Shown here: in pieces, positions 1 to 13,188 of the stretch
How the letters are laid out: every line of letters starts with the position of its first letter
How positions within the stretch are numbered: the first letter of the stretch is position 1
Assembly (NCBI RefSeq): GCF_008843145.1
Contig: NZ_CP030265.1
Location: 1,285,001 to 1,349,000 of the forward strand
Source of the DNA: Skermanella pratensis
GTDB lineage: Bacteria; Pseudomonadota; Alphaproteobacteria; Azospirillales; Azospirillaceae
Direction: 5' to 3'
Length of the DNA: 64,000 bases
Position numbers and translations under genes: made by a program
The notes under the pieces: generated by a model
What the model was told of the DNA's origin: nothing
What the model saw: the letters and a program-made list of their open reading frames with translations, nothing else
The model's database searches: none

Positions 1-1
1 C

Positions 2-1660
2 TTCGTCATCTATTTCATGCCCAAGAGCGACCTGCTGCTCAGCGGCAACGAGCCCGCCTTCCTGCTCAGGGCGCTCAAGCGGCTCGGCCAGGCCGAGGTG
101 GTCTGCGACATGGGGCGGGTCCCGCCGCTCTTCGAGCTGGACGGGGAGAGCCTTTACCTGTTCTGGCAGATCGCCCTGACCGGCACCACCGACGAGGCCG
201 CGATCCGCGACGTCTTCGAGTTCGTCGTGGACGACTGCCAGGTGGATATCGCCGAGACCACCGGGCCCGCCGACGGCGGGGAGGAGGAGGCGTTCGGCCT
301 GTTCGCGGAGAACCTGCCCTATGTCCCGCCCGGACAGCTGACCGTCTACGAGGCCGGCGCGGTGGAAGGCGCCCAGGCCGCACCGGCCCGGCCGGAGGGC
401 GGCGCCGGTTCCGGTACCTTCGGCGGCGGCGGCGGCGGCGGCGGCCTGGGCGGGCACACCATCCGCGTCGACCTGGACAAGGTGGACAGGCTGGTCAACC
501 TGGTCGGCGAGATGGTCATCACCCAGGCGATGATCAGCGAGCAGCTCCGCGACGTGCCGCCCGGCACGCTCCAGCAGCTGGTCGAAGGGCTGGAGGAGCT
601 GAGCCGCCATACCCGCGAGCTTCAGGAGAGCGTGATGGCGATCCGGGCGCAGCAGGTCCGGTCCGTCTTCTCCCGCATGCCCCGGCTGGTCCGCGAGGTC
701 GCCGCCCAGACCGGCAAGGAAGTCATGCTCGCCACCTCGGGGGAGACCACCGAGGTCGACAAGACCGTGGTCGAGAACCTGGTCGACCCGCTGACCCACA
801 TGATCCGCAACTCGATAGACCATGGCCTGGAGACGCCGGACGAGCGGGAGACCGTCGGCAAGCCGCGCAGCGGGACCGTCCACCTCTCCGCCCAGCACCG
901 CTCCGGCCGGATCGTGATCGAGGTGGCCGACGACGGGCGGGGCATCAACCGGCAGCGGGTGCTCCAGAAGGCGGTCGAGCAGGGCCTCGTTCCCGCCGGA
1001 GCCGGCCTGTCGGACGAGGAGATCGACAACCTCATCTTCCTGCCCGGATTCTCCACCGCGGACGCCGTCTCGGCCATTTCGGGCCGGGGCGTCGGCATGG
1101 ACGTCGTCCGGCGCAACATCGCCAGCCTCGGCGGGCGGATCGGCGTCCATTCTACGCCCGGCGTCGGCACGCGCTTCGTGCTGTCGCTTCCGCTCACCCT
1201 GGCCGTGCTGGACGGGATGGTCATCTCGGTCGGCGAGCAACGCTTCGTCCTGCCCCTGACCAACATCATCGAAAGCCTGCGGCCGCGCAAATCCGACCTG
1301 CAAAGCGTCGCCAACCAGTGCGACGTCATCATGGCGCGCGGCGAGTATGTGCGGCTGGTCTATGTCGACCGCCTGTTCCGCATCGACGGCGCGATCGGCG
1401 ACCCGACGCGGGGGCTGGTCGTCCTGGTCGAGACGGAGGAGGGCGGGCGCCTCGGCTTGGTGGTGGACGAGGTGCTCGGCCAGCAGCAGGTCGTCATCAA
1501 GAGCCTGGAAAGCAACTTCCAGCGGCTGGACGGCGTCTCCGCCGCCACCATCCTGGGCGACGGGCGCGTAGCCCTGATCCTCGACGTCGCCGGCCTTCAG
1601 AGCATGAGCCGCCACACCCATACCCGCGCGGTCCCCGCCGCAGCGTTGCCCGCCGCCTAG
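2..1660 (+). CDS. cheA: Chemotaxis histidine kinase CheA (5' partial)
   Basis: Kinase core of a chemosensory array; it autophosphorylates and passes the phosphoryl group to receiver-domain partners. The window opens inside the gene, so the Hpt (P1) domain with its phospho-His is not visible. Seen in order: a P2-like segment (first ~115 residues), a linker with a run of Gly codons, dimerisation helices starting RVDLDKVDRLVNLVGEM, an ATPase domain with N-box HMIRNSIDHGLE, G1 box VADDGRG and G2 box GRGVGMDVV, and a C-terminal CheW-like domain. The reading frame is open from base 2, so the ATG at 17 is internal. Nine bases separate it from cheW. Identity is secure; the missing N-terminus limits domain claims. 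Confidence 0.96.
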   Translation, partial: FVIYFMPKSDLLLSGNEPAFLLRALKRLGQAEVVCDMGRVPPLFELDGESLYLFWQIALTGTTDEAAIRDVFEFVVDDCQVDIAETTGPADGGEEEAFGLFAENLPYVPPGQLTVYEAGAVEGAQAAPARPEGGAGSGTFGGGGGGGGLGGHTIRVDLDKVDRLVNLVGEMVITQAMISEQLRDVPPGTLQQLVEGLEELSRHTRELQESVMAIRAQQVRSVFSRMPRLVREVAAQTGKEVMLATSGETTEVDKTVVENLVDPLTHMIRNSIDHGLETPDERETVGKPRSGTVHLSAQHRSGRIVIEVADDGRGINRQRVLQKAVEQGLVPAGAGLSDEEIDNLIFLPGFSTADAVSAISGRGVGMDVVRRNIASLGGRIGVHSTPGVGTRFVLSLPLTLAVLDGMVISVGEQRFVLPLTNIIESLRPRKSDLQSVANQCDVIMARGEYVRLVYVDRLFRIDGAIGDPTRGLVVLVETEEGGRLGLVVDEVLGQQQVVIKSLESNFQRLDGVSAATILGDGRVALILDVAGLQSMSRHTHTRAVPAAALPAA

Positions 1661-1669
1661 GATATAAAG

Positions 1670-2212
1670 ATGGCAACAGTCCCTTCGGCCGCCCTGCCGG
1701 CCGTTCCGCGAGGTCAGGCCGGACCGGTCCCGGCCGAGGAACAGTACGTCACCTTCACCGTCGGGACGGAGGAGTACGGCGTCAACATACTGTCGGTGCG
1801 CGAGATCCGCGGCTGGACGCCGGAGACCAAGCTTCCCAACATGCCCGACTATGTGCGCGGCGTGGGCAACCTGCGCGGCATCATCATCCCGATTTTCGAC
1901 CTGCGCGCCCGCTTCGGCGGTGGGCAGACGGAGGTGACCAAGCGTCACGTGGTCGTGGTCCTGCAGGTCGGCGAGCGCACCCGGGGCATCCTGGTCGATG
2001 CGATCTCCGACATCCTCACCGTCGCCCACGACGCGGTCAAGCCGCCGCCGGATATCGACAGCGGGCTGATCGACCAGCAGTACCTCAGCGGGCTGGTCAC
2101 GGCGGAGAACCGCATGGTGACCCTGCTGGACGTGACCCGCCTGTTCGCCGGCGACGCCGTCGAGGAACTCTCTTCCCACCACATCCAGATCCCGCGCCAG
2201 GCGCAGGCCTGA
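1670..2212 (+). CDS. cheW: Chemotaxis adaptor CheW
   Basis: Adaptor that couples CheA to chemoreceptors in the cytoplasmic array. The 180-residue protein carries a single CheW domain from about residue 25, with typical segments YVTFTVGTEEYGVNI, VREIRGW, LPNMPDYVRGVGNLRG and IIPIFDLRARFG. The N-terminal ~20 residues are Pro/Ala-rich and probably flexible. Start at the ATG nine bases after the cheA stop, so it is almost certainly co-transcribed and coupled with cheA. The receptor gene follows after 24 bases. Length and motifs are normal for the family. Confidence 0.96.
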   Translation: MATVPSAALPAVPRGQAGPVPAEEQYVTFTVGTEEYGVNILSVREIRGWTPETKLPNMPDYVRGVGNLRGIIIPIFDLRARFGGGQTEVTKRHVVVVLQVGERTRGILVDAISDILTVAHDAVKPPPDIDSGLIDQQYLSGLVTAENRMVTLLDVTRLFAGDAVEELSSHHIQIPRQAQA

Positions 2213-2236
2213 GCAGAGCCCCAAAGGGATTTTACA

Positions 2237-4948
2237 ATGTCCGTCACCACTCAAAGTTCCGTCCTGGCTCGGCTCGGCATCAACAAGCGCCTGTGGCTTG
2301 CGTTCGGCCTGCTGGTCGTCCTCCTGGTCGCCGGTTTCGGCTATGGCGGGTACAGCCTGCTGTCCATTCAGTCCGGGATCCGCCTGCTGGGCGACGCGGC
2401 GCATGATGCGAAGCTGGCGAAGGGAATCGAATCCGAAATGGCCGGCATGCGGATCGCGGCCCGCAACTTCGCGTACAGCGGCGACCAGAGGCTTCCGCCG
2501 GAGGTGCGCAGCCTGCACGCCGTCCTCGTCGGCAACATCGCGGCAACCCGGCTCGAGGTCGAGGACCCGACGCGCCTGCGGCTCGTCTCCGACATCGAGA
2601 GGCTCGCCGCGAGCTATCTGGTCAACTTCGAGAAACTGGTCGAGCTGCGGACGCGGCAGGACGGCGTGCTGCGCGAGCGGATGGAGCCCCTGGCCACCCG
2701 TATCCTGGCCTATTTCACCGAGATCAAGAATTCATCCGCGGCGGCGGGCAATCTCTCCGCGTCATTCGCCGCAAGCGAGTCGGAGGAGCATTGGCTGATC
2801 GCCCGGCTGGTGGTGGACCGGTTCCTCGCCAATGGGGATCAGGCTGCCAGGCGCGAGTTCAACGACAACATGGCCCAGATGCGGCAGCACCTGGGTGAGC
2901 TCGAAGCCGTGCTGAAGGACCCCGGGCTACAGGAGGCCAGGGTCGCGCTGGGCGACGGCGTCCGGCAGTTCGAAGCCGATTTCAACGAGATCCTCGCGAG
3001 CAACGTGGAAATCCTGCGGCTGCGGGACGACGTCCTGCTCAATGCCGGGACCGCGACCTCGGCGAAGGCGCAGGAGATCGTCGCCTCGGCCGAACGCAGC
3101 CAGGCCGAAATCGAGGCCATGGCGGCGGCCCAGATCAATACCGCCCTGACCATCACCGTCGTCATCGGCGTGATCTCGGTCCTGATCGGCATCATCGCCT
3201 CCCACCTGATTTCGCGCAGCATCATCAACCCGGTCAACGCGCTCCGCAAGGTGATGGCCGACCTGACCGACGGCGACCTCGCGGTCACGGTTCCCGGCAC
3301 CGCCGACCGTGACGAACTGGGCGACATGGCGCGCGCCGTGGATGCGTTCAAGACCGTCGCGGTGGCGGCGGTGCGGACCCGGATCGGTCTCGACAACGTC
3401 AGCGCCAACATCATGATGTCCGACGCGGACGGCAAGATCGTCTACTGCAACCGGGCGATCATGGGCATGTTCGGCGCGTGCGAGGCCGACCTGCGCAAAA
3501 GCCTTCCGGCTTTCGATTCGAAGTCCCTGATCGGGACGAACATCGACGTTTTCCATCGCGATCCGTCGCACCAGCGCCGGCTGCTGAGCGGGTTGACCGC
3601 CAGCCACAAGGGCATCGCCAAGGCCGGCAGCCATACCTTCCAGGTCATCGCCCATCCGGTGTTCGGCCATGGCGGGGAACGGCTCGGCACCATCATCGAA
3701 TGGCGCGACCTGACCGAGGAACTCCAGGTCGAGGAGGAGATCGGCAGCATCGTGTCCGGCGCGGTGAGGGGCGACTTCTCCGCCCGGATCGAGCTGGCCG
3801 GCAAGAGCGGCTTCTTCCTGACGGTCAGCGAGGGCATCAACGATCTGGCGGAGAATGTCTGCGCGGTCGCCGAGGACCTGGCCGCCGTCCTCCAGTCCCT
3901 GTCCCACGGCGACCTGACCCGGCGGATCGAGAAGGACTACGAAGGCGTCTTCCAGCGCCTCAAGAGCGACTTCAACTCCACCGCCGAGAAGCTGTCCGAC
4001 ATCGTCGGCCGGATCAGCCAGTCGACCGCCGCGATCTCCGAAGCGGCGCGGGAGGTTTCGGCGGGCAGCCTCGACCTGTCGGAGCGGACCGAGCAGCAGG
4101 CGTCCAGCCTGGAGGAGACGGCGGCGAGCATGGAGCAGCTGGCCGCGACGGTACGCAGCAACGCCGACAATGCCAAGCAGGTCAACGAGGTCGCCTCGAC
4201 CGCCCGCACCGCCGCCGACCGTGGCGGCAAGGTCGCCGGCGACGCGGTGGACGCGATGCGTCGGATCGAGAGTTCCAGCCAGAAGATCAGCGACATCATC
4301 GGCGTGATCGACGAGATCGCCTTCCAGACCAACCTGCTGGCCCTGAACGCGGCGGTCGAGGCCGCCCGGGCGGGCGATGCCGGGCGCGGCTTCGCCGTCG
4401 TGGCGCAGGAGGTCAGGACGCTGGCCCAGCGCTCGGCCCAGGCGTCCAAGGAGATCAAGGCGCTGATCATCGACAGCAATACCCAGGTGCGCGATGGCGT
4501 CGATCTGGTCGGCGCGGCCGGCGGAGCGCTGTCGGACATCGTGGCGGGCGTCAGCCGGGTCGCCGACCTGGTCGCGGAGATCGCCCGCGCGACCGCCGAG
4601 CAGGCCAACGGGCTGGACGAGATCAACGGCGCCGTAGCCCAGATGGACGAGATGACCCAGAAGAACGCGGCCCTGGTCGAGCAGAGTTCGGCCGCGGCGC
4701 GCTCGATGGAGGGGCAGGCCCATGATCTCGGCTCGCTGATCTCGTTCTTCAGCGTCACCGGCGCCTTGTCTCCTGCCGGCGAGCTTCCGGCGCGGCCCGC
4801 GCCGGTGCCGATGCGCAAGGCCGCGGCCGGTGCGCGGCCCGCTCCCCGTCCGGCCGGCCGCCCCGCCGAGGCCAAGCGGGTCGCTCAGCATCCGACCACC
4901 CTGCGCCGGGTCGAGACCAACGACGATCCCGACTGGAAGGAGTTCTGA
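2237..4948 (+). CDS. Methyl-accepting chemotaxis protein, membrane-bound, HAMP-PAS-HAMP
   Basis: Transmembrane chemoreceptor of 903 residues. Seen: membrane segment ~22-42 ([19 protein letters not shown]), a helical periplasmic domain ~45-300, a second membrane segment ~301-325, HAMP ~326-378, a PAS-like domain ~388-500 ([20 protein letters not shown]), a second HAMP-like stretch, and a signalling domain whose hairpin tip reads [18 protein letters not shown]. The C-terminus ends DWKEF, which fits the W-x-x-F tail that tethers CheR/CheB in some receptors, matching the cheR, cheD and cheB genes just downstream. Ligand unknown. The internal PAS suggests it may also sense a cytoplasmic or redox cue (inference). 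Confidence 0.95.
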
Positions 4949-4970
4949 GCGGGGCGCCACGGCCCCGGCT

Positions 4971-5000
4971 CATGACGTTTCATGACCTTTCATGACATCT
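4971..5000 (+). repeat. Three tandem 10-bp CATGACNTTT-like repeats before cheR
   Basis: CATGACGTTT, CATGACCTTT and CATGACATCT follow each other directly in the 81-base gap between the receptor gene and cheR. The 10-base period is close to one helical turn, as expected if a regulator binds repeated sites on one DNA face. No protein can be named. CATGA also contains ATG and TGA, so chance cannot be excluded. Confidence 0.55.
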
Positions 5001-5029
5001 GGCGACACGCCCCGCGCGGGAGGGATCGA

Positions 5030-5937
5030 ATGACTGACGCGGCGCACCGGAGCGCACCGGGCAGCCGGGGACGGGAGGGCAGCCTGTCCCGGACCACCGG
5101 CGAGCGCGAATTCCATTTCACCCGGGGCATTTCGACCATATCGCGGCGCTGCTCCAGCAGCTCACGGGCATCCATCTCGCTCCCCACAAGGTCGAGATGG
5201 TCTATTCCCGCCTTGCCCGGCGGCTGCGGGACCTGGGCATGGCGGACTTCGACGCCTACTGCGCCTTCCTGTCGTCCGAGTCGGGGGAAAGCGAGATCGG
5301 CCTGCTGGTCAACGCCCTGACCACCAACCTCACCCGCTTCTATAGGGAGTCCCACCATTTCGAGCACCTGGCCGCGGTCGTGCTGCCCCGGATCCAGGAA
5401 CGGCAGGCCGGCGCCGCCAAGCCGCGCCTGCGGATCTGGTCGGCGGGCTGCTCCTCGGGGGAGGAGCCCTACACGATCGCGATGACCGTGGCCTCGGCGG
5501 TGCCCGACCTTCACCGCTGGGATGTCCGCATCCTGGCGACCGACATCGACACCCACATGGTCGAGACCGCGCGCCGGGGGCTTTACGCCGCGGACGCGGC
5601 AACCGCCATCCCCGCGGCGATCCGTTCGCGCCACACCGCGGAGCAGCAGCAGGGAACCCGCCGGGTTCTATCCATGGGCGAAAGCCTGCGCCGATTGATC
5701 ACCTTCAAGCCGCTGAACCTGCTTGAAGACTGGCCTATGCGCGGACCCTTCGATGCGATCTTCTGCCGCAACGTGCTTATCTATTTTGACAGGCATGGTA
5801 GGACTGAAGTGATAGGGAAGTTCCATCAACTCCTGGATGTCGACGGGCATCTCTATCTCGGCCATTCAGAGAGTCTCTACGGCGTTTCCGAACAGTTTCG
5901 CCAAGTGGGGCCGACCAGCTATCAGGCCATACCATGA
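5030..5937 (+). CDS. cheR: Chemotaxis methyltransferase CheR (apparent -1 nt frameshift near 5124)
   Basis: SAM-dependent methyltransferase that methylates receptor glutamates. Start chosen at the ATG at 5030, preceded by GGGAGG at good spacing. That frame gives an N-terminus ending REFHFTRG, then loses CheR similarity. The -1 frame continues FDHIAALLQQLTGIHLAPHK and the rest of the protein (RLRIWSAGCSSGEEPYTIAM SAM site; FDAIFCRNVLIYFD). One extra G in the GGGG run at 5124-5127 would join the two halves perfectly. Without it the longest ORF starts at 5197 and lacks part of the N-terminal helical domain. Its stop overlaps cheD by ATGA. Either a sequencing error or a real disruption. Confidence 0.88.
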
Positions 5938-6578
5938 AGCATGCCGCGCGCGCACTTGACGACCGCAGAGGGAGTGTTCCGAGCCTGGACGAGCCCAACG
6001 AAGGCTATTTCCATCCGGGCTTTCGGGCCCATGCCGTCAAGGTCCTGCTCGGCGAGCACAAGATCTCCCAGCGGCCCGACGAGATGCTGGTCACCACCCT
6101 CGGTTCCTGCATCGCCGCCTGCGTCCGCGATCCGGTCCTGGGCCTGGGCGGCATGAACCATTTCCTGCTGCCCGAAGCTCCCGCCGGGAACGACGGCGGG
6201 GTCAACGCCGCCGCGCGCTACGGCGGCGTCGCCATGGAACGCCTGATCAACGAGATCCTGCGGCGGGGCGGCCGGCGCGACCGGCTGGAGGTCAAGGTGT
6301 TCGGCGGCGCCAAGGTGATCGTCAGCAGCAATCCCATCGGGCGCCGCAACGCCGAGTTCGTGCTGGGCTTCATCGCCGCCGAAGGGCTCACGCTGGCCGC
6401 GCAGGACCTGGGCGGCACCCTCGCGCGGCGCGTCCATTACTTCCCGAACACCGGGAAGGTGATGCGTCGCCTGATCCGGCAGGAAGCGGTGGAGGACACC
6501 ATCCGCAGCGAGATGAGGTTCATGTCCGACCTGGGCGCCAAGCCGGTCGAAGGCGATATCGAGTTGTTCGGGGATTGA
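5934..6578 (+). CDS. cheD: Chemoreceptor glutamine deamidase CheD
   Basis: Deamidates receptor glutamines to methylatable glutamates. The 214-residue protein contains the CheD core: TTLGSCIAACVRDP with the catalytic Cys, GGMNHFLLPE with the catalytic His, then ARYGGVAMERLINEILRRG and VKVFGGAKV. The ATG overlaps the cheR stop by four bases (ATGA), and its own stop overlaps the cheB start, which indicates tight translational coupling in the adaptation set cheR-cheD-cheB. The N-terminal ~35 residues before the core are longer than in minimal homologues. Confidence 0.95.
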   Translation: MKHAARALDDRRGSVPSLDEPNEGYFHPGFRAHAVKVLLGEHKISQRPDEMLVTTLGSCIAACVRDPVLGLGGMNHFLLPEAPAGNDGGVNAAARYGGVAMERLINEILRRGGRRDRLEVKVFGGAKVIVSSNPIGRRNAEFVLGFIAAEGLTLAAQDLGGTLARRVHYFPNTGKVMRRLIRQEAVEDTIRSEMRFMSDLGAKPVEGDIELFGD

Positions 6579-7627
6579 TGATGGGCAAGCCGATCCGGGT
6601 CGCGATCGTGGACGACAGCGCGCTGATGCGCCGGATGCTGACCGAAGCGCTGTCCGCCGAGCCGGGCTTCGAGGTGGTCGGCCATGCCGCCGATCCCTAC
6701 GAGGCGCGGGAAATGATCAAGTCGGCCAATCCGGACGTCCTGACGCTGGACGTCGAGATGCCGCGCATGGACGGGCTCACCTTCCTGGAGAAGATCATGA
6801 CGCTTCGGCCGATGCCGGTGGTCATGGTCTCGACCCTGACCCGCGAGGGAGCCGACGCCACGGTCCGGGCGCTGGAGCTGGGGGCGATCGACTGCATCGC
6901 CAAGCCCAACGGGGCCGAGGGAGAGCGTTTCGTGGATTTCCGCGACGAGCTGGTCGGCAAGCTGAAGGTGGCGGCCCATGTCCGCCTGGGGCCACCCCGG
7001 GCGAAGCCGGCGCGTGCCAAGGCCGGGGTCCGCAGCGGCGGCGGCCGTCTGATCGCGCTGGGCGCCTCGACCGGCGGGGTCGAGCGCATCCGTGACATCC
7101 TGGAGGTTCTGCCGGAAGGATCGCCGCCGATCCTGATCGTCCAGCACATGGGCGCCTTCTACGTGCCGAGCTTCGCCGCCCGGCTGGACCGCCAGTCCGC
7201 GCTGACCGTCAGGATGGCCGAGTCCGGCATGCGCGTGACGGCCGGCGAGGTGCTGATAGCGCCCGGCGACCGTCACATGGCGTTGCGCCGGGACGGCTTC
7301 GGCTATCTGTGCGAGATCGTCGACGGGCCGCCGGTCAGCGGTCACCGGCCGTCGGTCGATGTCCTGTTCAATTCGGTCGCCGAAGTGGCGGGCGCCAACG
7401 CGGTCGGCGTGATCCTGTCGGGGATGGGACGCGACGGCGCATCCGGGATGGCGGCGATGCGTGCCGCCGGCGCCTGGACGATCGGGGAGAACGAGCAGAG
7501 CTGCGTCGTCTACGGCATGCCGCGCATGGCCAAACTGGGAGGCGGCGTCGCCGTCGAGATGCCGCTTGGGCAGATCCCGGCCGAGATGCTCCGCGCCGCG
7601 GTGGCCCCCGCCGCACGGCCGGCCTGA
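6578..7627 (+). CDS. cheB: Chemotaxis response regulator protein-glutamate methylesterase CheB
   Basis: Removes methyl groups from receptors; activated by CheA. The receiver domain (~1-120) has VAIVDDSALMRRML, the phospho-acceptor in LTLDVEMPRMDG and the Lys in IAKPNG. The methylesterase domain (~155-345) has the Ser in ALGASTGGVERI, the His in VQHMGAFY and the Asp in GVILSGMGRDGASG. I chose the ATG at 6578, which overlaps the cheD stop as TGATG; ATG at 6581 or TTG at 6575 are alternatives. No defects are seen. The receptor upstream carries a matching W-x-x-F tail. Confidence 0.95.
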   Translation: MMGKPIRVAIVDDSALMRRMLTEALSAEPGFEVVGHAADPYEAREMIKSANPDVLTLDVEMPRMDGLTFLEKIMTLRPMPVVMVSTLTREGADATVRALELGAIDCIAKPNGAEGERFVDFRDELVGKLKVAAHVRLGPPRAKPARAKAGVRSGGGRLIALGASTGGVERIRDILEVLPEGSPPILIVQHMGAFYVPSFAARLDRQSALTVRMAESGMRVTAGEVLIAPGDRHMALRRDGFGYLCEIVDGPPVSGHRPSVDVLFNSVAEVAGANAVGVILSGMGRDGASGMAAMRAAGAWTIGENEQSCVVYGMPRMAKLGGGVAVEMPLGQIPAEMLRAAVAPAARPA

Positions 7628-7650
7628 TGACGGACGGGGGAGACTGACCG

Positions 7651-8850
7651 ATGTCGCTCGGATTGTTGAAGAGCATCGCCGGCAGCCGTTCCGACGCGCT
7701 GCCGGCGGCCGTCCGCCCGGCTCCGGTTCCGGTCCCGGCTCCGGCCGCGGAGCCGCCGGCCGATGCCGGGTACGACGATCTGCTGGGCCGCTGGCTCGGC
7801 TTCTCCGAGCTTCAGAACCATTGCCTGGACGCCCTGGCGACCGAGGTGAGGCGGACAAGCGACCTGGTCGAGTCCAGCACGCTGGAGATCAGCTCGCGGT
7901 TCCGCGATCTCGCCACCTCGGCGCAGGAGCAGACCAAGCGGGTCGAGGACATCATCGCGGTCGCCAACTCCGTCACGATCGACGGCGAAGCCATTCCGCT
8001 CGACCGTGTCGTCGCGACGATGCAGCAGATCCTGGTCGAGATGGTCAACAACATCGTCAACCTGTCGAAGCAGGCCATGACGATGGTCTATGTGCTTGAC
8101 GACGTGGTCCGGGATGTCGGCGAGGTCGAGAAGAGCATCGCCGACATCGACACGATCAACCGCCAGACCAATTTCCTGGCGCTCAACGCGACCATCGAGG
8201 CCAGCCGCGCGGGCGAGGCCGGCAGGACCTTCGCGGTGGTCGCCAACGAGGTGCGGCACCTGTCCAAGGCGACCGGGGACCTCGCCGGCCGCATGCGAGA
8301 CAAGGTCGGCGCCGTCGTCGTGGGGGTTCGGCGCGGCCACGAGATCCTGCGAGACATCGCCAACACCGACCTGTCGCCGCAGATGCTCGCCAAGGACCGC
8401 ATCGACATGACGATGATGAGCCTGGTCGCGCAGAGCCAGCATTTCCAGAGCGTGCTCCAGGACGCCGCGCGGGTCTCGACCGAGATCTCGGCCCATATCA
8501 GCCAGGTCATCACCCGGATGCAGTTCCAGGACCTGGCCAAGCAGCGCCTGGACCACGTGATCGACGGCATGACCGTTATGTCGAACGGCCTTGGGGAGCT
8601 GGGCGCGAGGACGCGCTTGGCGCTGCCGGCCGGCACCGGGATGGACTTCCCGCAGGAATGGGTGGACCAGCTGCTGTCCGGCATGACCCTGAGCGAGCTT
8701 CGCCAGCGCTTCGTCCGCCGCATGCTGCTGGCGGGTTCGGCGCTGGATGCGCACGGCGCGCTGGACCACGAGACGGGCTTTCCGGAGGCCGACGGCGCGG
8801 ATCCGGGCCTGTCGGACGGCACGGACGACGACAATGTCGAACTATTCTGA
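7651..8850 (+). CDS. Soluble methyl-accepting chemotaxis-like protein
   Basis: 399 residues with a receptor signalling domain but no visible transmembrane segment or HAMP. The N-terminal ~45 residues are Pro/Ala-rich, followed by a helical region and the hairpin tip [20 protein letters not shown] with flanking [11 protein letters not shown]. The C-terminal half continues as helices with [16 protein letters not shown], then an acidic tail. It probably joins the CheA/CheW array from the cytoplasm or acts as a soluble adaptor. It sits 23 bases after cheB and before the STAS gene, so it lies at the junction of the chemosensory and partner-switching parts of the operon. Confidence 0.87.
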
Positions 8851-8912
8851 TCGAGCGTGAGATTGCCCGGCGGCGGCAGCGCATTCTGCCATTCATGGAG
8901 CGGTGTGTAGAG

Positions 8913-9218
8913 ATGGATTACCGTATCGAGCTGGACGACCTGGAAGCACGCATCTTCATCTCGGGCCGCCTGACCTTCAACGACCATGGCAAGGTCCGCA
9001 GCATGATCCAGGAAATGGTGCAGAGCCATCCGAAGCGTCAGGTGATGATGATCGGCGGGCTGGATTTCGTGGACAGCTCCGGCCTCGGCATGATCCTGGT
9101 CGCGCGCGAGGAGGTGGCCCAGGTCGACAAGAAGCTGTTCCTCCGCGGAGCGCAGGGGCAGGTCAAGCGGGTCCTTGCGGTGGCCCAGCTGGACAAGATC
9201 GTGGACATCCAGGACTGA
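8913..9218 (+). CDS. STAS-domain anti-sigma factor antagonist (RsbV/SpoIIAA-like)
   Basis: A 101-residue single STAS domain. The motif GLDFVDSSGLGMIL contains the Ser that is phosphorylated by the cognate kinase in SpoIIAA/RsbV proteins (family knowledge). Start taken at the ATG at 8913 (MDYRIEL); an in-frame ATG at 8895 would add six residues. It is followed after 23 bases by an RsbW-like ATPase and then two receiver-PP2C proteins, the three components of a partner switch. Target unknown: no sigma factor gene is in the window. Confidence 0.9.
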   Translation: MDYRIELDDLEARIFISGRLTFNDHGKVRSMIQEMVQSHPKRQVMMIGGLDFVDSSGLGMILVAREEVAQVDKKLFLRGAQGQVKRVLAVAQLDKIVDIQD

Positions 9219-9241
9219 CGCGGATTTCGGGTGGGCCGGCC

Positions 9242-9961
9242 ATGGGGGCGAGCACGCTCTACGGTGTCGGACTGGCAGCCGAGCACCTCCAGGAGATCGC
9301 GGCGCTGGTCGATCGCGGCGGCTGCCCCGTCGTCTGCGGCCTTCCGGCCGACGCCGCCCGGATCGACGGTGCCGCCGTGCTCGCGGCGGGCCTCGACCAA
9401 GCATGCCTGAGCGAGGTCCTGGACCGGGGAGCCGGGGCCTGCATCGAGATCGGTTCGCTCGACGCTCCGACGGCGGCGGAGTGCGTTCGGCGTGCGGCGG
9501 GCTGCACCCTGTTCCTGTCCCTGACCACGGCCAGCGCCTATCGGCTGCCCGTGGCCCAGACCGTGGTGGCCGTGATCGACGGGCGGGCGCCGCTGGGGCA
9601 GGAGAGGTGCTACGACATCGAGCTGGCGCTCCAGGAGGCCGTCAGCAATGCGGTGATCCATGGCAACCTGACCGTGTCGAGCCTGCGCGGCCCAACGCTG
9701 GCGGCGCTGGACACCTTCTCCTGCGACCTCAACGAGAGGCTGGCCGACCCGGCGCTGGCGAACCTGCGGGTCGGGATCGCCGTGTCGATCGACGATGCTC
9801 GGATCACCATCGACGTGATCGACCAGGGTCCCGGCTTCGTGCCGAAACCTCGGGCGCCTACGACGGCGAGCGGGCGGGGCATCGGCCTGATCGAATCCCT
9901 GGCGGCCGAGTGGGAGCTGCTCGACGACGGCCGCCGGGTCCGCATGAGGTTCGCCCGATGA
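9242..9961 (+). CDS. RsbW-like serine kinase/anti-sigma ATP-binding protein
   Basis: 239 residues. The C-terminal ~130 residues form a GHKL ATPase fold: N-box LALQEAVSNAVIHGN, G1 box VIDQGPGFVP and G2 box SGRGIGLIES. In this family the protein phosphorylates a STAS antagonist and sequesters a sigma factor or other partner. The N-terminal ~110 residues have no motif I recognise and make it longer than minimal RsbW. Start is the ATG at 9242. Its stop overlaps the next ATG by four bases (ATGA), coupling it to the first receiver-PP2C gene. Partner identity is inferred from gene order only. Confidence 0.85.
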   Translation: MGASTLYGVGLAAEHLQEIAALVDRGGCPVVCGLPADAARIDGAAVLAAGLDQACLSEVLDRGAGACIEIGSLDAPTAAECVRRAAGCTLFLSLTTASAYRLPVAQTVVAVIDGRAPLGQERCYDIELALQEAVSNAVIHGNLTVSSLRGPTLAALDTFSCDLNERLADPALANLRVGIAVSIDDARITIDVIDQGPGFVPKPRAPTTASGRGIGLIESLAAEWELLDDGRRVRMRFAR

Positions 9962-11196
9962 ACGGCGTGATGGAGATGGCCTCCGCGGCGGCGCTGACCG
10001 AGCTTCGGCAGGTCGGGATCTTCGATTGCCTGATCCTGGTGGTGGACGACACCGACTTCAACCGCACCTTGATCACGGCGATGCTCCGGCAGGCGGGGTT
10101 CCGCCGGATCGAGCACGCGGTCGACGGCATCGACGCGCTGCGCAAGATCGACCATGAAGTGCCCGACCTGGTCATCCTGGACATCGTGATGCCTGGACTG
10201 GACGGGTTCGAGGTGTGCCGGCGCCTGCGCGCCGAGGACCGCTTCGCCGATCTGCCCGTCCTCGTGCAGACCGCCCTGTCCAACACCGAGGACCGCAACA
10301 AGGCCTTCCAGCTCGGCACCACCGACCTGATCACCAAGCCGATCGACCGCAACGAACTGCTGGCCCGTGTCCGCATCCATCTGGAGAACCGGATGCTGAT
10401 CCAGGACCTCCAGCTCTACCGCACCCGGCTGGAGAACGAACTGGCCATGGCGCGGGAGATGTACGGCCATCTGCTGCCGACCGCCGCGATCTTCGACCAG
10501 ATCAGCCGCGACAGCGGCGTGCGCATCCGGCACCACCGGGCCGTCTCGTCCGAACTGGGCGGCGACATCTGGGGCGTCATTCCGCTGCAGGAAGGACGCT
10601 TCGGGCTCTACCTGCTCGACATGACCGGGACCGGCGTGTCGGCGGCCTTGAACGCATTCCGCATGCATACCGTGCTCCATGAACTGGCACCGCTGGCCTC
10701 TTATCCCTCCCGTTTCCTGACCGAGGCCAATGCGCGGGCCGTCGGGCTTTTCGAGTCGGACGAGCGGGCGGCGATGATCTATGGCGTGGTCGATCCGATC
10801 GCCGGGACCTTCTCCTACACCACCGCCTCGGCCAAGCGGCCGATCCTGGTCCGGCGGGGCGCCGACGCGGCCACCCTGGGCGAGGCCGACGGCGCGCCGG
10901 TCGGCCATGCCGCCGAGAGCGTCTACCATACCCGCACCCTGGCGTTCGGGCCGGGTGCCATGCTGCTGCTCTACAACAATGCCGTGCTGACGGCCCTGCC
11001 GGGCGACGGCGGCAAGGCGGCGGAACGGGCGCTCGCCGACCTCGCGGTTCCCGCCCTGCAGGCGCCTAGCCTGGACGAGGCCTATGACCGCATGGTAGCG
11101 GCACTCGCCCGCGCGGTCGGCGACCGGCCTGGGCAGGACATGACCCTGGTCTTCCTGGCCAAGGACGCCTGTACCTCCCCCTGGGCGGAGCGGTAG
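9958..11196 (+). CDS. Receiver domain-PP2C (RsbU-like) protein with altered phosphatase motifs
   Basis: 412 residues. The receiver domain (~20-145) is intact: LVVDDTDFNRTL, phospho-acceptor in VILDIVMPGLDGFEV, Lys in ITKPID. A coiled linker leads to a PP2C/SpoIIE-type domain (~175-405). Compared with the next gene, metal-site motifs have changed: LGGDIWG (G206 where Asp is expected), LDMTGTG instead of D-x-SGHG, and GQDMT instead of DDxT. It may be catalytically weak or dead and act as a regulator of its paralogue (inference). Translation is coupled to the upstream ATPase gene by ATGA; the paralogue starts on the next base after its stop. Confidence 0.86.
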   Translation: MNGVMEMASAAALTELRQVGIFDCLILVVDDTDFNRTLITAMLRQAGFRRIEHAVDGIDALRKIDHEVPDLVILDIVMPGLDGFEVCRRLRAEDRFADLPVLVQTALSNTEDRNKAFQLGTTDLITKPIDRNELLARVRIHLENRMLIQDLQLYRTRLENELAMAREMYGHLLPTAAIFDQISRDSGVRIRHHRAVSSELGGDIWGVIPLQEGRFGLYLLDMTGTGVSAALNAFRMHTVLHELAPLASYPSRFLTEANARAVGLFESDERAAMIYGVVDPIAGTFSYTTASAKRPILVRRGADAATLGEADGAPVGHAAESVYHTRTLAFGPGAMLLLYNNAVLTALPGDGGKAAERALADLAVPALQAPSLDEAYDRMVAALARAVGDRPGQDMTLVFLAKDACTSPWAER

Positions 11197-12375
11197 ATGA
11201 GCAGTTCGGCCTCTGCGCCCGTCAGTATCCGGAACGCCCGGATCCTGGTGGTCGACGACAACCGGGTGAACCGTCACCTGCTGGTCGCCGTGCTTCAGCG
11301 CGGCGGCTTTCCCCATGTGGAGATGGCCGAGGACGGGATCGACGCGCTGGCCAAGATCGAGGCGAACGCGCCCGACCTGATCCTGCTCGACCTGATGATG
11401 CCGAAGCTGGACGGCTTCGAGGTGTGCCGCCGGCTGCGCACCGATCCCAACCGCCGGGACCTGCCGATCCTGGTCCAGAGCAGCCTGTCGGGCTCGGAAG
11501 ACCGGACCCGCGCCTTCTCGGTCGGGGCGACCGATTTCGTCAGCAAGCCGATCAACGCGACCGAACTGCTGTCCCGGGTCCGCATCCACCTGGAGAACCA
11601 GGCGCTGCTGCGCGACCTGCAGGGCTATCGCCGGCGCCGCCAGGGCGAGCTGGCGCTGGCGCGGAGCATGCAGGAACGGCTGCTGCCGGCCCCGTCGCGG
11701 CTGCGGGAGACCAAGGCCGACCTGGGCCTGAGCCTGGCGGCCCATTTCGAGCCGTCCTCGGAACTGGGCGGCGATTTCTGGGACCTGCGGCGCGACGGGC
11801 GCGGCCGGCTGATCGTCTGGCTGGTCGATTTCTCCGGCCACGGCGTCGGCGCGGCGCTCAACACTTTCAGATTGCACGCGATCCTGCGGCAGATGGACCT
11901 GAACGATTTCGACCCGGCCGACCATCTGCGCGAGGTGAATGAACGGGTCTGTCCGCTTCTGCGCAGCGGCCAGTTCGCGACCATGCTGGTCGGCGTGGTC
12001 GATCCGGTGGAGAACACGTTCCACTATGCTTCCGCCGGGGCGCCGGCGCCGATGGTCTGGCAGGCTGGCGACGCCGCGCCGGAGTTCGGCGACAGCAGCG
12101 GATTGCCGGTCGGCATCCTGGCCTCGGCCCGCTACCAGAACCGCGACCTGGCCTTGCCGGTCGGCGGCCGGCTGTTCCTCTACAGCGATGGCGCCAGCGA
12201 GTTGTGGACCTCCGAGGATACCGTCCTGGGCGAGGAGGGGCTGCTCGACCTGGTCCGCGGTCACATGCATCAGGAGGAGGACGCCGGCTTCCTGGCCGGC
12301 CTGCTCGGCTCCCTCACCGCGCTGGGAAATTTCGACGACGACGTGACCGCGCTGGTGCTGACCCGCCGCGCGTAA
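11197..12375 (+). CDS. Receiver domain-PP2C serine phosphatase (RsbU-like)
   Basis: 392 residues. The receiver domain has ILVVDDNRVNRHLL, phospho-acceptor in LILLDLMMPKLDGFEV and Lys in VSKPIN. The linker is followed by a PP2C/SpoIIE domain with intact metal motifs: LGGDFWD (D193 and D196), VDFSGHGVGAAL and FDDDVTALVL. It is expected to dephosphorylate the STAS protein encoded upstream when its receiver is phosphorylated, presumably by CheA. It starts directly after the stop of its degenerate paralogue and is the last gene of the operon, ending 12 bases before a convergent gene. Confidence 0.92.
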   Translation: MSSSASAPVSIRNARILVVDDNRVNRHLLVAVLQRGGFPHVEMAEDGIDALAKIEANAPDLILLDLMMPKLDGFEVCRRLRTDPNRRDLPILVQSSLSGSEDRTRAFSVGATDFVSKPINATELLSRVRIHLENQALLRDLQGYRRRRQGELALARSMQERLLPAPSRLRETKADLGLSLAAHFEPSSELGGDFWDLRRDGRGRLIVWLVDFSGHGVGAALNTFRLHAILRQMDLNDFDPADHLREVNERVCPLLRSGQFATMLVGVVDPVENTFHYASAGAPAPMVWQAGDAAPEFGDSSGLPVGILASARYQNRDLALPVGGRLFLYSDGASELWTSEDTVLGEEGLLDLVRGHMHQEEDAGFLAGLLGSLTALGNFDDDVTALVLTRRA

Positions 12376-12387
12376 CGTCATCGGACG

Positions 12388-13188
12388 TCATCCGTCCGCG
12401 ATCGGGTCGTAGAAAGCGGCGGAAAAACCCGCCTTGTCCCGGCTCTCCTCGTTGAAGGGACGCTTCAATCCGCCCTTGAAATGGGTGCGGACGAGGTTCT
12501 GCCAAGTGGGAATCGGCGGGACGCCCAGTTTGTCGCAGACATGCTCGAACCAGCGCCGGCCGGCGGCCACATGGGTGATCTCGTCGTCGTGGATGATCTG
12601 GAGCGCGTCGGCGCCGGCGTCGTCGCCGACGGTGCGCAGGTTCCGGATCATGGCGGGGGTCACGTCCAGCCCGCGCGCCTCCAGCACCAGCGGCACGATG
12701 GCGAGGCGGGCGGCGAGGTCGTGGGCGGTGTCCCGGCTGGCCTGCCAGAGCCCGTCATGGGCGGGCAGGGCGCCGTAGCGGCTGCCGAGGTCGGCCAGTC
12801 GGCGGCACAGCATGTCGAAATGCCGCGCCTCGTCGTCGGCGACCTGGACCCAATCGTCGGTGAAACCCTTGGGCATGCCGGCGCCGAAGCGGGCGACGAT
12901 GTCCCAGGACAGGTCGATGGCGTTCAGCTCGATATGGGCGAGGGCGTGGATCAGCGCGGTCCGCCCGGCGACGCTGCCGGCCTTGCGGCGCGGCGGCATG
13001 TCGCGCGGCAGGCGAAGCTCCGGATAGTCGGGACGCGCCGGCCGGTCGGGCGGGACCGGCGGGCCAGGCGGCTCGATCCCGGCCAGCGCGCCGGTCCGCC
13101 ACTCCTCGGCGAACCGGCGGGAGAGGCGGACCTTCTCCGCAGGGTCGGCGGTGGTCAGGACGGTGACGGCGGCAGACCTGATACTCAT
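12388..13188 (-). CDS. Ferritin-like domain protein (DUF455/COG2833)
   Basis: 266 residues, a four-helix ferritin-like fold of the DUF455 family. Likely di-iron ligands are in HALAHIELNAIDL, DDEARHFDML, LVLEARGLDV and IHDDEITHVAAG. The family has no settled biochemical role; a redox or RNA-modification type oxygenase has been a common guess. The N-terminal ~60 residues are Pro-rich. It runs convergent to the chemosensory operon and in the same direction as cysQ upstream. Confidence 0.85.
   Translation of the reverse strand: MSIRSAAVTVLTTADPAEKVRLSRRFAEEWRTGALAGIEPPGPPVPPDRPARPDYPELRLPRDMPPRRKAGSVAGRTALIHALAHIELNAIDLSWDIVARFGAGMPKGFTDDWVQVADDEARHFDMLCRRLADLGSRYGALPAHDGLWQASRDTAHDLAARLAIVPLVLEARGLDVTPAMIRNLRTVGDDAGADALQIIHDDEITHVAAGRRWFEHVCDKLGVPPIPTWQNLVRTHFKGGLKRPFNEESRDKAGFSAAFYDPIADG

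Follow-up and report, generated by a model that had tools for sequence, protein, structure and literature searches.

Does a chemosensory kinase that is encoded next to a partner switch also control that switch? The question is raised by a gene cluster at the start of a 64,000-nucleotide stretch of the Skermanella pratensis genome (G000:C1:1285001-1349000, here called the window; the genome consists of one contig of 5.87 Mb). Genes for the kinase CheA and further chemotaxis proteins are followed there by genes for a STAS protein, an RsbW-like kinase (RW) and two proteins, RP1 and RP2, that each combine a receiver with a PP2C domain (receiver-PP2C, RP). The best explanation of the whole is, in our view, the family form of an F7 'stage-1' or Che4-type operon with a built-in partner switch that would be fed by CheA, RP2 being active and RP1 tuning; we assign this reading a probability of about 0.55. 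As far as the cited descriptions go, layouts of this kind are already known from F7 stage 1 systems (PMC7184735) and from CrsR/CrsA in Che1 (PMC9855816), which limits the surprise. New are the conserved pair of an active phosphatase and a pseudophosphatase, both with receivers, and the association of this kind of switch with a motility operon of the Che4 type. In the open-licence literature we found nothing on such an arrangement in Azospirillaceae, nor on a che-linked pseudophosphatase.

Gene order and conservation of the cluster

All genes of the cluster lie on the plus strand in the order STAS0-cheY-cheA-cheW-mcp-cheR-cheD-cheB-mcpS-STAS-RW-RP1-RP2, and every one of them is supported by Pfam (Table 1). 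The gaps between them amount to -16 bp (STAS0/cheY), 7 bp (cheY/cheA), 9 bp (cheA/cheW) and 24 bp (cheW/mcp) in the first part, to approx. 81 bp (mcp to the expected cheR start at 5030), -4 bp (cheR/cheD), -4 bp (cheD/cheB) and 23 bp (cheB/mcpS) in the middle, and to 44 bp (mcpS/STAS), 23 bp (STAS/RW), -4 bp (RW/RP1) and 0 bp (RP1/RP2) at the end. The overlap of RW and RP1 is an ATGA, and the ATG of RP2 adjoins the stop codon of RP1. Downstream, a long open frame on the opposite strand (12388-13188) was taken as the next gene. Scanning for promoters and terminators gave one promoter-like and two terminator-like sites, the latter both on the minus strand, compared with means of 0.6 and 3.8 in shuffled sequences. 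As neither kind of site exceeds the shuffles, a single transcript is weakly indicated.

The initial annotation of this DNA had listed cheA-cheW-mcp-cheR-cheD-cheB and a soluble methyl-accepting chemotaxis protein (MCP), to which STAS, RsbW-like ATPase and a pair of receiver-PP2C genes are joined by short gaps or ATGA overlaps, and all of this holds. That no stand-alone cheY was visible turned out to be an effect of the window edge: in the upstream stretch (L007; window position equals L007 position minus 10000) we found both cheY and the N-terminus of CheA. A conserved cheY directly upstream that takes all CheA phosphate had been named as a point that could overturn the annotation; half of this applies, as the gene itself is indeed there. 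Neither cheR as a clean gene nor the two PP2Cs as equals withstood closer inspection, as described below.

According to the available description of gammaproteobacterial F7 stage 1 systems, their gene order is anti-sigma factor antagonist, cheY, cheA, cheW, aer2-like receptor, cheR, cheD, cheB, mcpA-like receptor, anti-sigma factor antagonist and serine phosphatase (PMC7184735). The order found here is nearly identical, whereas the numbers differ: stage 1 has two cheW genes and one phosphatase gene, the present cluster one cheW, a separate RW gene and two receiver-PP2Cs, one of them degenerate (PMC7184735). Another counterpart is Che4 of Azospirillum brasilense, described as an F7 system with cheD, two MCPs and nine proteins including CheS, whose receptor Tlp4a carries three HAMP domains and a PAS domain between the first and the second (PMC8429497, PMC6759762, PMC8561660). 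Both clusters have cheD, two MCPs, an extra gene before cheY and a receptor with PAS between HAMPs, of which Pfam finds two here rather than three. The consulted Che4 descriptions mention no downstream STAS/RsbW/PP2C switch. By gene content and architecture, and not by comparison with a named A. brasilense sequence, we read the che half as a probable Che4 orthologue.

Recurrence of the order in relatives was followed by searching 82 genomes of the family with both RP1 and CheA as queries. From each genome a single CheA match was used, namely the best one in G003, G013, G027 and G051, which had several. An RP1 match with E <1e-95 served as marker of the switch (57 genomes), to which G067 was added, where the listed match is RP2 and RP1 was found via its neighbourhood; in the remaining 24 genomes, the receiver-PP2C matches were weaker and were counted as other genes. 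Of the 82 genomes, 57 have both CheA and the switch, one has the switch alone (G058), none has CheA alone and 24 have neither. A distance of 5.7-8.9 kb separates the two in 53 of the 57, where they share contig and strand; the remainder are G036 and three assemblies of at least 260 contigs (G031, G048, G051). The full order was seen in 13 long family loci (L147-L157, L159, L160), except that in L156 and L157 no mcp match separates cheW from cheR and that the contig of L160 begins within cheA. A further deviation is G067, in which cheD is matched after RP2. Because the order recurs in relatives and the linkage on one contig and strand is so frequent, it reflects more than chance: the connection of CheA with the switch is conserved both physically and phylogenetically.

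Outside the family, four alphaproteobacterial loci that each start inside the cluster (L193, L200, L202, L206) contain che genes, mcpS, STAS and a single receiver-PP2C. Twenty further CheA-matched loci came from the class and the phylum. Two of these (L208, L209) keep the order with one receiver-PP2C, three from outside the class (L212, L213, L214) keep it with a receiver-PP2C-kinase fusion in open frames of 585, 576 and 576 codons, and the other 15 have different layouts or are incomplete.

The two receiver-PP2C proteins

Active-site residues were read from 196 receiver-PP2C sequences, merged by identical cores into 153 distinct ones (58 RP1, 58 RP2 and 37 others); matches covering fewer than 280 query residues were dropped, by which the RP1 of G067 was lost. 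SpoIIE is described as binding Mn through Asp628, Asp746 and Asp795 (PMC3517971, PMC8080068), and from its motif the Asp of YSDG probably corresponds to Asp746. This ligand, expected in an active SpoIIE/RsbU-type PP2C, is lost in all 57 readable RP1s (Val in 21, Asn in 17, Thr in 13, others in 6), the 58th copy being truncated at the end of its contig. All 58 RP2s and all 37 other receiver-PP2Cs retain it. RP1 has in addition lost the His of GHG in 55/58 sequences and, in 25/58, the Asp that precedes this His by four positions, and it retains the Asp of GGD in 53/58 and the last Asp in 55/57. All six active-site columns are intact in every RP2. The phosphorylation sites of both receivers are intact, with D, D, D and K complete in 58/58 RP1s. 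Even the RP1 of G067 keeps its receiver, while its PP2C is degraded further. The suggestion that both PP2Cs dephosphorylate STAS is thus not supported, and a model with two active enzymes was rejected for the active-site losses of RP1.

A quick tree of 73 rows (18 of the 58 RP1s, 18 of the 58 RP2s and 37 other rows, one of them the RP2 of G067) placed RP1 in one clade and RP2 in another, with Shimodaira-Hasegawa-like approximate likelihood ratio (SH-aLRT) values of 98 and 90. These are the only support values, and the midpoint root serves the drawing. Each clade includes a copy from G121, a genome of another family, so that the pair either predates the family or has moved between families. RP1 and RP2 are old tandem duplicates.

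Divergence is distributed unevenly within RP1. Among 17 RP1s and 17 RP2s from 17 genomes, identity was 0.710 and 0.730, respectively, in the receivers and 0.435 and 0.609 in the PP2C domains. The ratio of nonsynonymous to synonymous substitution rates (dN/dS) in three genus comparisons was 0.078-0.200 for whole RP1, 0.016-0.081 for its receiver and 0.14-0.34 for its PP2C domain. The identity and the low dN/dS of the receiver argue that RP1 is maintained, with constraint mostly in receiver and linker. A decaying pseudogene is ruled out by values well under 1 and by the complete receiver residues. As the catalytic Asp is lost in all readable copies and the receiver is conserved and under purifying selection, RP1 is very probably a conserved phospho-receiver pseudophosphatase and RP2 the enzyme.

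The remaining parts of a partner switch are present as well: a STAS protein with its phosphosite and a kinase with its boxes accompany the one PP2C with a full active site. Counted by locus, with some loci repeating a genome, Asp and Ser of the STAS motif DS.G are kept in 58/58 loci and Glu and Asn of the RW N-box together with the G1/G2 residues in 59/59; the cheY counts of the same table were set aside, since short loci without cheY had contributed other receivers. RW is the fastest-evolving of the eleven genes compared (dN/dS 0.30-0.33 in three genus pairs). A 93-residue piece of its N-terminus had no Pfam match even at E 10, and the structure model of this region reached a mean predicted local distance difference test score (pLDDT) of 66.

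A proposed route from CheA to the partner switch

In the reading that we favour, receptors of the array would set the autophosphorylation of CheA, whose phosphate would pass to the co-encoded CheY and CheB for motility and adaptation and presumably also to the receivers of RP1 and RP2. Once its receiver is phosphorylated and a dimer is ordered by the helical linker, RP2 would remove the phosphate that RW had earlier placed on the Ser of STAS. Dephosphorylated STAS would then bind RW, and RW would free a putative target, a sigma factor or another regulator; the direction of the switch is that suggested by the protein families. RP1 would most likely tune RP2, either by pairing with it in a dimer to which RP1 contributes a receiver, or by competing for CheA phosphate. 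The available account of PP2C dimers that are ordered by coiled-coil linkers below receivers or other sensors, a model developed for RsbU and RssB (PMC12143880), agrees with such an arrangement, and a dead receiver-PP2C beside an active one would fit a heterodimer gated by either receiver as well as a phosphate sink.

A precedent is provided by CrsR and CrsA, encoded in the Che1 locus of Shewanella oneidensis; the cited accounts describe their control of RpoS and call a part of Che1 in it probable (PMC9855816, PMC6482189). Like the cluster described here, CrsR brings a receiver, a PP2C and an RsbW-like kinase that act on a STAS protein into a che locus. It differs in uniting all three domains in one polypeptide with RpoS as target, while here the genes are separate and the phosphatase is duplicated (PMC9855816, PMC6482189); among our loci, a fusion was found in L212-L214. 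The initial interpretation, in which CheA phosphorylates the receivers and so acts on STAS, is therefore backed by the genetic link, the intact receivers, the invariant STAS Ser and kinase boxes and this precedent, and it loses the absent cheY and the second active PP2C.

Several observations weigh against our reading. CheY, encoded directly upstream, may be the main acceptor of CheA phosphate. In G036 the operon is split over two contigs, C2 carrying STAS0-cheY-cheA-cheW-mcp and C1 everything from mcp-cheR-cheD-cheB onwards. The pair of receiver-PP2Cs appears unnecessary for coupling as such, given that distant relatives have a single one. Residues retained in RP1 (the Asp of GGD and the last DD) may leave it some phosphatase activity. 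No target or sigma gene is linked to the cluster; 19 sigma-70 region-2 matches were counted in the genome. Moreover, G058 and G121 carry the four-gene switch without nearby che matches, so that another kinase is probably able to feed it, and a scan of ten neighbouring proteins at these two switches revealed no sensor kinase. As an observation on G036 itself, mcp matches occur on both sides of the break (L264 = G036:C1:2949000-2962000; L265 = G036:C2:276000-292000).

Some of these points serve the strongest rival, an ordinary Che4-type motility operon in which CheA passes phosphate to CheY and CheB only and the switch, co-transcribed or merely adjacent, is fed by another histidine kinase. The upstream cheY and the che-free switches of G058 and G121 agree with this, and so does A. 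brasilense Che4, which according to the cited study sets the frequency of swimming reversals and is needed for chemotaxis (PMC8561660). Because the matching Che4 has this function, the switch would be at most a second output. What makes a purely motile role doubtful in our eyes is that not one of the 57 genomes with CheA lacks the switch, both being absent together from 24, and that the succession of second MCP, STAS and receiver-PP2C extends to distant alphaproteobacteria and to three loci from outside that class. Adjacency of such age suggests a functional link rather than proving phosphotransfer.

Two further rivals concern RP1. It might act as a phosphate sink: by drawing off CheA phosphate, this second receiver would shape the responses of CheY and RP2, and its PP2C would be a relic. 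This would account for a receiver conserved like that of RP2, with the lowest or nearly the lowest dN/dS among the RP1 domains, beside a drifting PP2C. A pure sink, however, would not need the PP2C domain, whose reading frame and fold persist in every RP1 read and which is constrained and confidently modelled, and we therefore regard it as unlikely. The model itself, built from eight sequences, has a mean pLDDT of 86 and consists of a receiver, a 42-residue helix and a PP2C fold. Foldseek matched it first to RssB of P. aeruginosa and second to that of E. coli. The likeness to RssB extends over receiver, helical linker and PP2C fold, and of the two RssBs the cited work describes that of P. aeruginosa as active and that of E. 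coli as a receiver-bearing PPM protein that is inactive (PMC12143880). That RP1 is an RssB-like adaptor, whose phosphorylated receiver and dead PP2C bind a target (a sigma factor, for example) and hand it over to a protease or RW without regulating RP2, we nevertheless consider improbable, although RssB is its best relative in the PDB by fold and by full-length sequence: a sequence comparison of the presumably active RP2 with the PDB likewise puts P. aeruginosa RssB first, so that this match cannot separate the roles of RP1 and RP2, neither RpoS nor another target came to light, and RP1 lies nearest RP2 in the tree (RssB sequences being outside that comparison). RssB is described as handing a sigma factor to degradation (PMC12143880); the gene of RP1 adjoins an active sister and a STAS/RsbW pair.

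Returning to a partner switch fed by CheA, a more specific version is possible and is put forward tentatively: CheA would control the serine-phosphorylation switch through a phosphorylation-gated RP1-RP2 heterodimer, and the array would set gene expression in parallel to motility, which in Azospirillum would account for what CheA4 does to transcription and nitrogen metabolism. A CheZ-like helix in mcpS may reset the receivers. Loss of CheA1 or CheA4 in A. brasilense is reported to alter transcription and nitrogen metabolism by a route to RpoN that is, according to the authors, not yet known (PMC8561660). The switch, found in all 57 family genomes with CheA, offers a concrete candidate route for such non-motility effects of Che4, and the chemotaxis system may thus also steer other cell functions. 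Furthermore, the conserved degenerate partner is a natural case of how a pseudophosphatase receiver protein might control an active PP2C, matching the coiled-coil linker model as outlined in PMC12143880.

The Hmp system of Nostoc is a partner switch that is linked to chemotaxis-like genes as well. The partner switch of the Nostoc punctiforme motility locus comprises the phosphatase HmpU, the STAS protein HmpV and the kinase HmpW (PMC8256260). It resembles the one described here but is cyanobacterial, and the consulted descriptions mention no degenerate second phosphatase (PMC8256260).

Gene coordinates, receptors and further loci

Table 1. Genes of the cluster; positions refer to the window unless L007 is given.
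Gene	Position	Strand	Remarks
STAS0	L007:8826-9149, upstream of window	+	second STAS gene, precedes cheY
cheY	L007:9134-9511, upstream of window	+	stand-alone, 125 aa; 7 bp before cheA
cheA, 3' part	1..1660	+	last 552 codons of a 713-aa protein; gene start 482 bp before the window (L007:9519); Pfam Hpt, H-kinase_dim, HATPase_c, CheW
cheW	1670..2212	+	Pfam
mcp	2237..4948	+	membrane receptor; HAMP-PAS-HAMP-MCPsignal, C-terminal DWKEF
cheR	5030..5937	+	frame-shifted near 5125; open frame of body 5197-5937
cheD	5934..6578	+	Pfam
cheB	6575..7627	+	start TTG 6575, or ATG 6578 or 6581
mcpS	7651..8850	+	soluble MCP without transmembrane segment; weak CheZ-like helix at 8521-8544
STAS	8895..9218	+	phosphosite motif DSSGLG; start 8895 or 8913
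RW	9242..9961	+	RsbW-like kinase; N-box, G1/G2 intact; approx. 95 N-terminal residues without known family
RP1	9958..11196	+	receiver and degenerate PP2C, very probably a pseudophosphatase; ATG at 9958
RP2	11197..12375	+	receiver and PP2C, complete active site; ATG at 11197

Hydrophobic segments of mcp lie near residues 13-44 and 298-330; mcpS has none of the transmembrane kind. Residues 291-298 of mcpS read QFQDLAKQ and resemble the catalytic helix of CheZ, and the Asp and Gln are kept in all 56 covered loci (58 in all). The Pfam CheZ profile gave E=0.02 on a 90-residue piece and 7.9 on the whole protein, neither passing the cut-off. In hhalign with six CheZ sequences, mcpS scored P=0.0023 (probability 12.5%) and the ordinary mcp P=0.085 (probability 0.7%). 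Statistical support for the putative CheZ-like helix is thus weak.

The expected start and the body of cheR are in different frames, and comparison with the intact copies of congeners G079 and G081 reveals a one-base shift, which may be either a real loss or a sequence error. A TCATGAC unit is repeated three times in the gap between mcp and cheR (window 4970-5000) and is present also in the congener G079. The protein encoded by STAS0 lacks the DSSG motif, and its Ser is kept in 13/13 loci.

Beyond the family genomes, a scan of contigs from named organisms contributed four loci (L067-L070) of 80, nearly all others matching the receiver part only. The RP cores of a named Azospirillum metagenome-assembled genome (L067) are identical to those of locus L184 from G043, genus g3. 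In the plasmid collection, no RP1 match of at least 60% identity occurred among the 5000 best records and no such CheA match in 136 records; a Vibrio stretch of this collection is unannotated and has no che match. Within the Skermanella genome, away from the cluster, another receiver and PP2C-like gene of 399 aa lies on the minus strand of L008 (G000:C1:5229033-5229599; L002, L008). Several RsbW-like ATPase matches are found beside a PP2C match at G000:C1:3880161-3883547 (L004, L229, L231), possibly a second partner-switch locus.

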